Virus record (IMG/VR): IMGVR_UViG_3300025070_002617
Span: 1 to 22,833 of that record
Strand: one strand, 5' to 3'
Source: a virus
Length of the DNA: 22,833 nt
How positions within the stretch are numbered: the stretch's first letter is position 1; each line of letters opens with the position of its first letter. The translations under genes were made by a program, and so were the position numbers. Positions 2,435 to 20,550 of this stretch are shown here, in pieces. The notes under the pieces were generated by a model. That model ran no database searches. It was not told the origin of the DNA and saw only the letters and a program-made list of their open reading frames with translations.

Positions 2435-2994
2435 TATTTAAGGAATTACATAAGAACGTCTTTCATGTTAATAATGTTTTCCCTACGGAAATGTTTTTAC
2501 GAGTTGGTGATGAGTTTAATCCCATAAACAACCACTGGATCTTTGATAAAGAATCGTCATATGATGATGGGAATAGTTCTATTAGAGGCAAAATAGTAAA
2601 AAGTTCTAGTTTCATGGGTGACAATCTCGTTCTCATTAACATAGGAATGTATGTAAAGCTGAAAGCTGAAAAACATCTAAGACAAAAATTAAAACTAATC
2701 AAAGTAAATACCAACATTCAATATTCTGGCATGCATTCTATCTTTCATAAAGACGGTCCATTGGATAATCCATCGGATTCACTATGGACATTTGTGATAT
2801 TTTGTCAATCAAATTGGAACACAATCTGGGGCGGAGAGTTCTGTTGTAATGTAGGTGACGAATATGTTTATGTCCCATACATTCCTAATAACGGATGTTT
2901 ATTTGATTGTAGGAATGACCATACCGGTTTTGCACCCAATAACTTAACATCAAAACCCAGACTGTCATTGGCATATACTTTTCTAGAGACTTGA
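2431..2994 (+). CDS. 2OG-Fe(II) oxygenase superfamily protein
   Basis: A 187-residue protein with the double-stranded beta-helix ligand set. H106-x-D108 (FHKDG) is followed by WGGEF (133-137), a distal His164 in NDHTGF and Arg177 in PRLSLAYTF, which would hold 2-oxoglutarate. Length and spacing fit the small prolyl-hydroxylase-like oxygenases common in marine T4-like phages. The substrate is unknown. It differs clearly in sequence from the oxygenase-like protein at 1122, so the two are not a recent duplication. It starts in an ATGA overlap with the zinc-ribbon gene, and its stop overlaps the -35 of the next promoter. Confidence 0.72.
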   Translation: MIFKELHKNVFHVNNVFPTEMFLRVGDEFNPINNHWIFDKESSYDDGNSSIRGKIVKSSSFMGDNLVLINIGMYVKLKAEKHLRQKLKLIKVNTNIQYSGMHSIFHKDGPLDNPSDSLWTFVIFCQSNWNTIWGGEFCCNVGDEYVYVPYIPNNGCLFDCRNDHTGFAPNNLTSKPRLSLAYTFLET

Positions 2995-3019
2995 CTTTGA
3001 AGTCAGGTAACGATACAAT
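2991..3019 (+). promoter_or_regulatory. Sigma70-type promoter with palindrome at -35
   Basis: TTGACT (2991-2996), a 17-nt spacer and TACAAT (3014-3019). A perfect inverted repeat, TGACTT-TG-AAGTCA (2992-3005), overlaps the -35 and is a candidate operator. The last three bases of the -10 are also the first three of the late box at 3017-3024. Confidence 0.7.
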
Positions 3020-3228: not shown

Positions 3229-3301
3229 GCTTCTTTAGCAATCCGGTGAATGCACCGATCTCATAAATCGGCTAAGGTGGGTCCGACTCCCACAAGAAGC
3301 A
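3229..3301 (+). tRNA. tRNA with CAT anticodon (Met or Ile2)
   Basis: Acceptor GCTTCTT (3229-3235) pairs with AAGAAGC (3294-3300) and A3301 is the discriminator. The anticodon stem is CCGAT/ATCGG and the loop CTCATAA has CAT at 3262-3264. The T-stem is GTGGG/CCCAC. Two features are unusual: the D-stem has only three pairs (GCA/TGC), and the T-loop is TCCGACT, with C where T55 is expected. The G1-C72 pair argues against an initiator tRNA. Elongator Met and lysidine-modified Ile2 cannot be told apart by eye. CCA is not encoded. It is probably co-transcribed with the antitoxin-like gene. Confidence 0.82.
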
Positions 3302-3303
3302 TT

Positions 3304-3356
3304 GAGGTCAGTTCGCAGACTGTCCTCTTGACTCTTACAGTCAAAACCCTTATAAT
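3304..3356 (+). promoter_or_regulatory. Hairpin plus sigma70-type promoter
   Basis: TTGACT (3328-3333), a 17-nt spacer and TATAAT (3351-3356), giving a start near 3363. The -35 is the left arm of a perfect inverted repeat, TTGACT-CTTAC-AGTCAA (3328-3344). Directly before it is an imperfect hairpin, 3304-3327 (GAGG and CAGT pairing with ACTG and CCTC, one T/T mismatch), abutting the tRNA 3' end; it could help tRNA maturation or weakly terminate. It drives the gene at 3379. Confidence 0.8.
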
Positions 3357-3864: not shown

Positions 3865-3872
3865 AATAAATA
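3865..3872 (+). promoter_or_regulatory. T4-type late promoter box AATAAATA
   Basis: AATAAATA begins 1 nt after the stop codon of the 3588 gene and ends 21 nt before the ATG at 3894. No matching -35 is present, so this would be a late-only promoter. Confidence 0.65.
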
Positions 3873-3893: not shown

Positions 3894-4148
3894 ATGTCTA
3901 GTAGAAAAACATCAGATACTGGAGCATATATGTCTCAGTATGACCAGGAAGTAGAAACCAGACTTAAGGCTCTTGAGACTGGGGTCAAGAAGGTTGGAGA
4001 AGAAGTTCAAAAAAAGAATTCTGCCCCTGCCGCTCCTGCTCCTGCTCCGGTTAGTGGTGATCTAGAAGCCAAAGTAGACTTGCTAATTAGTATTCTAAAA
4101 CAGGCACCTGGTCTTAATATTGAAAAACTGTCTAAAGGTAAACTCTGA
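3894..4148 (+). CDS. Coiled-coil protein with Ala-Pro linker, possible virion component
   Basis: An 84-residue protein in three parts. Residues 14-41 form a likely coiled coil (YDQEVETRLKALETGVKKVG and onward). Residues 43-55 are an Ala/Pro-rich flexible linker (SAPAAPAPAPVSG). Residues 56-84 form a second helix (LEAKVDLLISILKQ) and a basic tail. The late box upstream and this helix-linker-helix design suit a minor structural or assembly protein, but nothing in the sequence proves it. It ends the transcription unit, with an intrinsic terminator 53 nt downstream. Confidence 0.62.
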   Translation: MSSRKTSDTGAYMSQYDQEVETRLKALETGVKKVGEEVQKKNSAPAAPAPAPVSGDLEAKVDLLISILKQAPGLNIEKLSKGKL

Positions 4149-4201
4149 TATGAGTTTCTTGCTTCTCTAAAGAGCAAGTGGCGCGGCATGAACCCTATAC
4201 T

Positions 4202-4230
4202 AGGAGGTCTTGACAAAGGCCTCCTTTTTT
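4202..4230 (+). terminator. Intrinsic terminator that contains a promoter -35
   Basis: AGGAGGTCTT (4202-4211) pairs with AAGGCCTCCT (4216-4225) as a 10-bp stem with one T-G pair and a GACA loop, followed by a T tract to 4230. The apex of the hairpin spells TTGACA, the -35 of the next promoter. It separates the 3379-4148 unit from the glycan island. Confidence 0.85.
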
Positions 4231-4238
4231 AATACAAT
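4210..4238 (+). promoter_or_regulatory. Sigma70-type promoter of the glycan island, nested in the terminator
   Basis: TTGACA (4210-4215), a 17-nt spacer and TACAAT (4233-4238), giving a start near 4245, about 20 nt before the first island gene. The -35 sits at the hairpin tip and the T tract fills the spacer. No late box is seen here. Confidence 0.8.
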
Positions 4239-4265: not shown

Positions 4266-4760
4266 ATGAAGATTGGTTTTAATTGTAGTTCCTTTGACTT
4301 GTTTCATGCAGGACATGTGACAATGTTGAAGATGGAAAAAGAACTATGTGATTATCTTGTAGTTGCTCTTCAGGTTGATCCTACTATTGATAGACCTGGT
4401 ATCAAAAACAAACCCACTCAGAGTGTGTACGAGAGGTATGTACAACTCCAAGGTTGTAAGTATGTTGATGAGATCTTGGTATATGAAACCGAAGATGATC
4501 TTATTAATCTTATCAAAACTCAAACACTCGACATTAGATTCTTGAGTGAAGAGTATAAGGACAGAGATTTCACAGGAAAACAATACTGTATTGATAATAA
4601 TATTGAACTACATTATCATTTAAGACGACATAAGTATTCTTCGACTGAACTTAGGAATAGAGTTTATACTTTGGAGAATGCAAAAAGAACTGAATTAGTT
4701 CCGGGAGAAGTATTTGACCAATATTCACCAGAACTTCTTAACAAGTATGAGAAATCATGA
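4266..4760 (+). CDS. Cytidylyltransferase-family nucleotidyltransferase (TagD/RfaE-like)
   Basis: A 164-residue protein with the HxGH nucleotidyltransferase signature at 14-17 (FDLFHAGHVTML), an ERYVQLQGCKYVDEILVY segment (about 56-73) and a C-terminal YSSTELR (124-130). The last matches the (S/T)T-x-L-R element that contacts the nucleotide in glycerol-3-phosphate cytidylyltransferases and ADP-heptose synthases. The reaction is expected to be transfer of CMP or AMP to a phosphorylated polyol or sugar, with pyrophosphate released. The acceptor cannot be read from the sequence. It is the first gene of the island and overlaps rmlB by 4 nt. It does not have the fold or motifs of RmlA, so it does not supply dTDP-glucose. 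Confidence 0.8.
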   Translation: MKIGFNCSSFDLFHAGHVTMLKMEKELCDYLVVALQVDPTIDRPGIKNKPTQSVYERYVQLQGCKYVDEILVYETEDDLINLIKTQTLDIRFLSEEYKDRDFTGKQYCIDNNIELHYHLRRHKYSSTELRNRVYTLENAKRTELVPGEVFDQYSPELLNKYEKS

Positions 4761-5668
4761 GTATTTTAGTTACAGGTGGAGCAGGGTTCATTGGAAGTAA
4801 TCTTCTTCATTACCTTGAACAGTTTGGTGAGGAAGTTATCTGCATGGATAAACTTTCTTATGCTGCAGATGAAACTAATCTTCCAGATTATGTAAAGTTT
4901 TATCGGACAGATATTGCTGATGATGAATCGGTAAGAAATGTATTTGAAAAGGAGACTATTACAAAAGTCTTTCATCTTGCAGCAGAGAGTCATGTAGATA
5001 ATTCAATTAAAGACTGTAAACCTTTCATTCATTCTAATATTACAGGCACTGTTAATCTTCTTCAGTGTGCATTAGAACATGAAGTAAGTAGATTTATGCA
5101 TATCTCTACTGACGAGGTGTTTGGTTCTATTGCATACGGTTCCTTTAATGAGATATCTAGATACCGACCAAGGAATCCATACTCTGCATCTAAGGCTGCA
5201 AGTGATCATTTCGTAAATGCATACCATACCACATACGGATTACCAACTATTATTACAAACTGTTCTAATAACTATGGTCCACGACAATATCATGAGAAGA
5301 TGGTACCCAAAACTATCTTAAGCATTATGAATGACATTCCGGTTGATGTATATGGTAGTGGATTGCAAATCCGTGATTGGATTTATGTTGAGGATCATTG
5401 TAAGGCCCTTGTAGAACTTTGTAAGAGAGGTAGAGCAGGTCAGAGTTACAATGTTGGTGGTGAATGTGAGTTGAAAAACATTGAACTTGTTCATAGGATT
5501 GCTAGATTGATGAATAAAGAATTTGAAATTAACTTCGTTAAAGATAGACCGGGCCATGATCAAAGATATTCAACATCAAATGATAAGATCACAACTGAAA
5601 CACCTTGGACTGTATCGACACATATCGATGAAGGTCTCTTAAAAACTATCAAATATTATTATGAATAG
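4757..5668 (+). CDS. rmlB: dTDP-glucose 4,6-dehydratase
   Basis: A 303-residue extended SDR enzyme. It has the NAD-binding TGGAGFIG (6-13), HLAAESHVDNSI (73-84), the RmlB-specific STDEVFG (117-123, with catalytic Thr118, Asp119 and Glu120), the active-site pair Tyr142/Lys146 (YSASK), and NNYGPRQ (171-177). It converts dTDP-D-glucose to dTDP-4-keto-6-deoxy-D-glucose, the branch point for rhamnose and other 6-deoxysugars. It is slightly shorter than the usual 340-360 residues, mainly through trimmed loops. It is coupled to the cytidylyltransferase gene (ATGA) and to rmlC (8-nt overlap). No RmlA gene is in the window, so substrate probably comes from the host. Confidence 0.93.
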   Translation: MSILVTGGAGFIGSNLLHYLEQFGEEVICMDKLSYAADETNLPDYVKFYRTDIADDESVRNVFEKETITKVFHLAAESHVDNSIKDCKPFIHSNITGTVNLLQCALEHEVSRFMHISTDEVFGSIAYGSFNEISRYRPRNPYSASKAASDHFVNAYHTTYGLPTIITNCSNNYGPRQYHEKMVPKTILSIMNDIPVDVYGSGLQIRDWIYVEDHCKALVELCKRGRAGQSYNVGGECELKNIELVHRIARLMNKEFEINFVKDRPGHDQRYSTSNDKITTETPWTVSTHIDEGLLKTIKYYYE

Positions 5669-19112: not shown

Positions 19113-19915
19113 TGGATAAGAACAAATCAGTATACAAACTTAACGGTATTGGTCCGATCTATTGTATTAATCTAGATGGTCAACCAGAGAGATGGAAGTT
19201 TATGGAGGACCAGTTTAAGTACTGGGAGATCAAAGACTACACGCGTATCTCTGCCTATGACGGTCGTGAAGACGACTTAAGTGATATTCTGAAGGGAAGA
19301 TACCCTGACATGGTTTCATCGGGTGAGGTGGGTTGTGTGACATCTCACCTTAAGGCTATCAAACATTGGTATGAAACCTCTGATAGTCCTTATGCAATCA
19401 TCATGGAAGATGATTGTGATCTAAACCTTGTACGGTTCTGGAACTTTACATGGAAGGATTTCTATAGTAAGATTCCTTATGATTGGGACCTTTGCCAGAT
19501 TGCTATTATTTCAACTGGTGATATCCACATCAAAGTTCACAAGAGGTTTGTCAATGACTTCTCAACTGCTTGCTACCTTATCACAAGACACCATGCTGAA
19601 AAGATGATTCGTCTTCACTGTAGAGGTGACAAGTACAAACTTGATAATGGTGTAAGACCAAGACCAGTTGCAGATGATCTTCTGTATAATTCTGGTAATG
19701 CTTATGCCCTTCCCCTTTTATTATACAAAACTGAATTGGGTTCTAGTATTCATCCAGAACATGTAGATGTATTTCATAAACAAAACTATGAAGCACAGAT
19801 GAACTTCTGGGCAAATGCTGGAGCTCAAATGACAATTGACGAACTGATGGACTTCGATCCTTACCTTGGTAGAGTGTCGAATTCATCACAACAACAGCCC
19901 CCACAAGGGGGTTGA
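19112..19915 (+). CDS. GT25-family glycosyltransferase
   Basis: A 267-residue protein. IYCINLDGQPERWKFME (16-32), TRISAYDG (44-51), GEVGCVTSHLKAI (71-83) and the DxD-bearing YAIIMEDDCDL (94-104) are the four classic blocks of GT25 (the LPS beta-galactosyltransferase and collagen galactosyltransferase family). Residues VADDLLYN (about 187-194) could supply the catalytic or base region. The C-terminus ends in a low-complexity SSQQQPPQGG tail, encoded where a G/C hairpin overlaps the stop. It is the last gene of the island. The next promoter's -35 overlaps its TGA. Confidence 0.88.
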   Translation: MDKNKSVYKLNGIGPIYCINLDGQPERWKFMEDQFKYWEIKDYTRISAYDGREDDLSDILKGRYPDMVSSGEVGCVTSHLKAIKHWYETSDSPYAIIMEDDCDLNLVRFWNFTWKDFYSKIPYDWDLCQIAIISTGDIHIKVHKRFVNDFSTACYLITRHHAEKMIRLHCRGDKYKLDNGVRPRPVADDLLYNSGNAYALPLLLYKTELGSSIHPEHVDVFHKQNYEAQMNFWANAGAQMTIDELMDFDPYLGRVSNSSQQQPPQGG

Positions 19916-19940
19916 CATAACCGAAACCATCGGTTATAAT
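19896..19940 (+). promoter_or_regulatory. Perfect-consensus sigma70 promoter with adjoining hairpins
   Basis: TTGACA (19912-19917), a 17-nt spacer and TATAAT (19935-19940): a 12/12 match at optimal spacing. A hairpin with stem AGCCCCC/GGGGGTT and loop ACAA (19896-19913) ends at the -35. A second inverted repeat, AACCGA-AACCA-TCGGTT (19919-19935), fills the spacer and could be an operator. The last three bases of the -10 begin the late box at 19938. Confidence 0.9.
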
Positions 19941-20059: not shown

Positions 20060-20431
20060 ATGTTCAAATCTGTATTCGCAGCTGCTGCTGCTCTGTCCAT
20101 GTCCGCCGGTGCTGCCCTTGCAGGTCCTTATGTCAACGTCGAAACCAACGCAGGTTGGGTCGGTGATGACTACTCTGGTGCTGTAACCGATCTTCATATT
20201 GGCTACGAAGGTGCTATCGGTGAGAACGCCGGTTGGTATGTTCAAGGCGGTCCTGCTATCGTTGCCGTTGACGGTGAAGAGTCTGAGACTGAGATCTCCG
20301 GTAAAGTTGGTGCTTCCGTTGCCCTGACCGAATCACTCGGTGCATATGGCGAACTTTCCATGTTGACTGCTGATCAGGACTTCGATGACCTGAACGTCGG
20401 TGGTAAGTTGGGTCTTAAGTACAACTTCTGA
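20060..20431 (+). CDS. Small outer-membrane beta-barrel-like protein with signal peptide
   Basis: A 123-residue protein. Residues 1-21 form a clear Sec signal peptide (MFKSVF, an Ala-rich core, then ALA before Gly22). The mature part is about 102 residues of alternating polar and hydrophobic strands rich in Gly and Tyr (AGWVGDDYSG, GWYVQGGPAIVAV, KVGASVALTESLGAYGELS). It ends GLKYNF, with a terminal Phe like the beta-signal recognised by the BAM machinery. The length fits an eight-strand barrel. I recall similar short proteins in cyanophages as hypotheticals. Codons use many C/G third positions, unlike the glycan genes, which together with the consensus promoter suggests high expression. An intrinsic terminator follows. 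Confidence 0.72.
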   Translation: MFKSVFAAAAALSMSAGAALAGPYVNVETNAGWVGDDYSGAVTDLHIGYEGAIGENAGWYVQGGPAIVAVDGEESETEISGKVGASVALTESLGAYGELSMLTADQDFDDLNVGGKLGLKYNF

Positions 20432-20489: not shown

Positions 20490-20514
20490 ATGAAAGCAAT
20501 TACTAAACCGTCCA

Positions 20515-20540
20515 CCACTCCTTGACTGGGGTGGTTTTTT
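20515..20540 (+). terminator. Second terminator, loop equals the next promoter's -35
   Basis: CCACTCC (20515-20521) pairs with GGGGTGG (20528-20534) through seven pairs, one of them T-G. The 6-nt loop is TTGACT, and six T residues follow. The loop is exactly the -35 hexamer of the purine-operon promoter. Confidence 0.82.
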
Positions 20541-20550
20541 ATTGTATAAT
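20522..20550 (+). promoter_or_regulatory. Sigma70-type promoter of the purine operon, nested in the terminator
   Basis: TTGACT (20522-20527), a 17-nt spacer and TATAAT (20545-20550), giving a start near 20557, about 15 nt before the first ATG. The spacer contains the right arm and T tract of the terminator. Confidence 0.85.

Follow-up and report, generated by a model that had tools for sequence, protein, structure and literature searches.

The closest described counterparts of the element analysed here are the promoter-early stem-loops (PeSLs), composite promoter-terminator cassettes of T4-like phages that are said to have been described by Arbiol in 2010 and by Comeau in 2014, and that are reportedly found in phage RB49. 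PeSL-like elements were judged to be sparse in cyanophage S-PM2 (PMC4503421). The other relevant system is wcaG, a candidate riboswitch of cyanophages and marine metagenomes that occurs near exopolysaccharide genes and was placed in 5' UTRs (PMC2864571), a 5'-UTR riboswitch view repeated in PMC9964418 and PMC9602691. Our search of the literature on nested promoter-terminators found nothing relevant.

The window, that is, the whole stretch of viral DNA that was analysed (22,833 nucleotides), contains the following features.

3865-3872, plus strand: late-promoter-like AATAAATA before the 84-aa gene, a pattern match only
3894-4148, plus strand: 84-aa gene upstream of the element (phrog_35121, function unknown)
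4114-4192, plus strand: wcaG remnant (Rfam RF01761, 24 bits), its conserved 3' half at about 4152-4192
4202-4225, plus strand: predicted terminator hairpin of 10 bp, with arms AGGAGGTCTT (4202-4211) and AAGGCCTCCT (4216-4225) and loop GACA (4212-4215)
4210-4215, plus strand: -35 hexamer TTGACA, of which TT ends the 5' arm and closes the loop and GACA is the loop
4226-4230, plus strand: T tract TTTTT directly 3' of the stem, whose final base (4225) is also T
4233-4238, plus strand: -10 hexamer TACAAT, after a spacer of 17 nt (4216-4232)
4266-4760, plus strand: cytidylyltransferase-like gene (PF01467), the first gene of the glycan operon
4757-5668, plus strand: nucleotide-sugar epimerase/dehydratase gene (PF16363, PF01370)
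20060-20431: outer-membrane-like protein gene preceding the second nested element
20514-20550, plus strand: second nested element, ACCACTCC[TTGACT]GGGGTGGT TTTTT ATTG TATAAT

At 4202-4230, a stable stem (ten of ten pairs standard, one of them U.G; computed folding energy of the hairpin, -15.7 kcal/mol) is followed immediately by a T tract, as in an intrinsic terminator. TTGACA-17-TACAAT, with 11 of 12 matches, is a sigma70-like promoter by sequence, and its 17-nt spacer consists of the 3' arm, the T tract, and AA. Both the 10-bp stem with its GACA loop and T tract and the position of TTGACA at the hairpin apex, 17 nt before TACAAT, were present as the preliminary description had read them. One stretch of 37 bases thus appears to end upstream transcription and to start the next gene block. 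The genes from 4266 onward matched CTP_transf_like, GDP_Man_Dehyd/Epimerase, dTDP_sugar_isom, and DegT aminotransferase models, and these sugar-gene domain matches suit the label "glycan island" that the block had been given.

A T4-like cyanophage is the most likely source of the window: one gene of the window codes for an outer-membrane-like protein of cyanophages (PF24653), and Synechococcus phages are the nearest named records for the region of the element. A DNA similarity search among named phages with a 50-mer from this region gave five Synechococcus phages together with weak unrelated matches. Four tRNA genes (Rfam) were located at 1938-2163 and 3229-3301 beside small unknown genes, and relatives carry many tRNAs in the corresponding neighbourhood.

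As in PeSLs, a predicted sigma70-like early promoter and a stem-loop are packed between genes in a variable region of a T4-like phage, and a promoter (TTGACA-17-TACAAT) joined to a stem-loop (a covarying T-tract hairpin) was predicted here. The geometry, in contrast, is different. In RB49, the hairpin is found within the spacer, over the -10, or as a separate terminator shortly upstream of the -35, and in none of the RB49 intergenic promoters inspected is the -35 located at the tip of a terminator with a T tract. PeSLs are further characterized by many similar, recombinable copies per genome, compared with two nested elements in this 22.8-kb contig, and by a place at gene-exchange junctions; here the element is kept with unrelated upstream sequences, and in phage S-B43 wcaG and the element are separated by a gene. 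Because its geometry differs although the composite idea is shared, the element is regarded as a new geometry of that idea and not as a PeSL. An ordinary intrinsic terminator with a separate sigma70 promoter behind it would provide both functions in the identical order, but here the bases are shared, so that the -35 and the spacer are the terminator. Elsewhere in the window, a promoter-like site of the form TTGACA-17-TATAAT at 19894-19940, in which the spacer and the -10 form a hairpin of 7-8 bp and ahead of which stands another strong hairpin lacking a T tract, represents the RB49 type of promoter/hairpin overlap. Strong promoter-like sites at 1835-1863, 2991-3019, and 3328-3356 also overlap inverted repeats without T tracts.

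In simple scans of the window, neither promoter-like sites alone (38 versus 38.8 in shuffles) nor terminator-like sites alone (6 versus 5.7) were in excess, and the 4202 promoter and the 4202 terminator each appeared in these lists. In contrast, a scanner requiring a terminator and a promoter in register found two cases in the window versus 0.15 per dinucleotide shuffle. The unusual part is the overlap of terminator and promoter, not either class alone. The second case, with TTGACT, is at 20514-20550; a pattern search for TTGACA or TTGACT inside hairpins with T tracts had been proposed in the preliminary description. The whole genomes of Syn9 and RB49 contained two nested elements each, which is about the chance level and no excess; nesting is therefore not a general property of T4-like genomes. 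Promoter-scan matches inside genes (407, 4569, and others) were put aside as expected by chance.

Comparison with relatives revealed that the nested element, with a varying stem, is retained in contigs that carry the same cytidylyltransferase, and that the exact pattern occurs once in each of 49 matching contigs. The wcaG-core pattern was found at at least 80 loci; among the matches listed, 70 were non-redundant, and of these 52 had a terminator with an in-register -10, 10 had a terminator-like hairpin only, and 8 had neither called. In the 52 in-register loci among the matches listed, the position of the -35 with respect to the loop is constant, 46 have a 17-nt spacer and 44 have TATAAT as the -10, and a few are without a -35 starting with TT. 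TTGCAT, with three of six matches to TTGACA, is the commonest -35 in relatives; the window itself has TTGACA. Among the terminator-like hairpins of the same loci (matches listed, all drawn from related sequences), TTnnnn at spacer 17 was present in 47 of the 61 distinct post-wcaG hairpins versus a nested promoter in 9 of the 259 others, and an in-register -10 in 53/61 versus 30/259. Given the relatedness of the sequences, the p-value for this association is only indicative.

The eight modelled pairs were all canonical in each of 36 distinct related hairpins among the matches listed, although these were chosen for a TT-closed loop and at least six continuous pairs, so that full pairing partly follows from the choice. 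What does not follow from it is the covariation, with two to six pair types per position across the 36, and the drop to about 62% canonical pairing after permutation of the arms. Since all 36 hairpins are fully paired in their true arms while the -35/-10 register is fixed, the comparison indicates that the nested arrangement is not due to chance, and it suggests that selection maintains both uses while most letters of the stem change. A plain terminator occupies the place of the nested element in contigs L192, L198, L201, and L209 and in phages S-B43 and MA01, that is, where no promoter is needed, and the plain terminators after wcaG have neither the GCATA loop nor the -10. One relative (L123) is without the element, its gene following directly after the upstream stop codon. 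That a single element would end the upstream unit and start the next, as had been proposed, is well supported by this comparison of relatives.

Among the matches listed, the first genes behind nested elements matched epimerase/dehydratase models in 26 of 49 cases and were cytidylyltransferase-like in 10, with a few other sugar enzymes; the 18 wcaG copies without a nested promoter had neither type as first gene and precede genes for CpeT, 2OG oxygenases, and methyltransferases. Nested promoters thus appear to lead mostly into nucleotide-sugar genes. In cultured phages, a biased sample picked for resemblance to a query of which the hairpin was part and in which all carry wcaG, the post-wcaG nested elements stand before genes for a glycosyltransferase, an epimerase, or a GDP-mannose dehydratase. 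S-SM2, Bellamy, and SynMITS9220M01 are among the cultured phages that have the nested element. Away from wcaG, nested elements follow a porin gene in S-SRM01 and a photosystem II gene in Sf-FS3, and further ones occur in S-SKS1 and S-RIM4; those of Sf-FS3 and S-SKS1 resemble the 20514-20550 element of the window.

The window retains only the 3' half of wcaG, and its 24 bits lie below the Rfam gathering score of 42. At the corresponding place, relatives carry a full wcaG (43-104 bits, the best 103.9), which in most copies is directly upstream of the nested element. wcaG often begins 0-50 nt past the upstream stop codon; among the matches listed, its start lies at a median of 31 nt past the stop codon of the upstream ORF, and 19 of 77 starts are within 12 nt of that codon or overlap it, which leaves no room for a promoter before wcaG. 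Because the upstream stop codon adjoins it and the terminator and promoter come after it, wcaG looks like mainly a 3'-UTR element in most copies, and transcripts from the nested promoter would not contain it. Its location upstream of exopolysaccharide-type genes is common to the published copies and to these relatives; unlike in the published 5'-UTR view, a terminator and a promoter usually stand between wcaG and the next gene. One exception is S-H38, in which wcaG is followed almost at once by the start of the next gene, in line with the 5'-UTR view.

Two further observations concern the surroundings of wcaG. In S-B43 (L161:19230-20043), wcaG is followed by a plain terminator, and the gene that separates wcaG from the nested element is placed as if inserted at the junction. 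Tandem intergenic RNA-like modules, an AGTC-hairpin followed by CTGGTCGGG or CTGGTGGAGTC, occur upstream of wcaG and of some genes, both at L231:7740-7830 (minus strand) and in cultured phages; they resemble wcaG halves and have no Rfam match at E 1 or better, and at least one is present in 10 of 18 phage records (reversed-pattern control, 0).

We consider it probable that the cassette serves as shared terminator and promoter punctuation, with exclusion on the 37 bp: the anatomy, covariation, fixed register, and association with wcaG and glycan genes come from sequence and comparison, and from these we infer that termination and initiation take place, as well as their exclusion and timing. In the RNA, the hairpin with its U tract would terminate transcripts of the upstream unit, which in relatives would carry wcaG in the 3' UTR; as duplex DNA, the shared bases would act as a sigma70-type promoter for the glycan operon, with the -35 at the hairpin apex. 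The upstream transcript would end in the T tract and the operon would start about 14 nt downstream. By the standard footprints of RNA polymerase, a polymerase terminating about 14 nt before a start site and a promoter-bound polymerase cannot coexist. The earlier statement that both uses are compatible accordingly holds over time only, and simultaneous occupancy is excluded by these footprints. Terminating and promoter-bound polymerases would exclude each other on the 37 bp, which would thereby insulate the glycan operon from read-through, and heavy upstream transcription could occlude the nested promoter. The built-in order of expression suggested in the preliminary description fared less well: AATAAATA at 3865-3872 suits it, but the late-promoter motif NATAAATA was not enriched before wcaG-bearing genes (2/64 versus 84/953), and an early/late ordering is a guess.

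A more elaborate proposal, that wcaG, terminator, and nested promoter form one unit in which a 3'-UTR wcaG of the upstream transcript sets termination and a three-way gate between read-through, termination, and fresh initiation on the 37 bp times the glycan genes, is tentative and rather doubtful. It is unlikely that wcaG acts as an aptamer with the hairpin as its expression platform, so that a ligand sets read-through and the nested promoter provides a second, ligand-independent input. In keeping with such control, most copies have wcaG immediately before the hairpin, a riboswitch role near exopolysaccharide genes has been put forward for it (PMC2864571), and the pairing of the 5' arm with upstream sequence was slightly stronger for own than for swapped partners (-10.60 versus -10.25 kcal/mol), just beyond 20 permutations. 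This excess is small, however, and may reflect relatedness, and because stems vary widely while the 3' end of wcaG is nearly constant, no conserved antiterminator pairing was seen. Moreover, the cassette persists with half of wcaG in the window, with no wcaG visible just upstream in relative L122, and with an intervening gene in S-B43. As cassette and wcaG are separable in these three cases and the pairing excess is small, wcaG-controlled termination is possible but not favoured.

A functional promoter whose inverted repeat acts on DNA, for example as a protein site or a DNA-strand structure, and causes no termination is very improbable: the promoter-like sites at 1835, 2991, and 19912 do overlap inverted repeats without T tracts, as in RB49, but what is conserved is the pairing and not the stem sequence, which argues against a protein site. 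In addition, the nested cases have a T tract behind the stem, and in other phages the corresponding place is taken by plain terminators made of a hairpin and a T tract. It is equally hard to credit that the terminator alone is functional and that the hexamers arise as side effects of an A+T-rich tail together with a favoured loop. TTGCAT makes a weak -35, the GCATA loop could be stable and GNRNA-like, and promoter-like matches by themselves do not exceed chance in the window. However, the in-register -10 is rare elsewhere (the 30/259 versus 53/61 among the matches listed), plain post-wcaG terminators are without both the GCATA loop and the -10, and the genes behind nested copies would otherwise have no promoter.

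As regards wcaG, most of the copies examined are followed by a predicted promoter that belongs to the next gene, an arrangement that fits ill with a simple 5'-UTR riboswitch; if the three-way gate were true, wcaG would be a termination-coupled 3'-UTR element instead. It is covariation, not resemblance, that points to phages keeping a terminator and a promoter in shared letters, and the element would thus clearly exemplify double coding in regulatory DNA.
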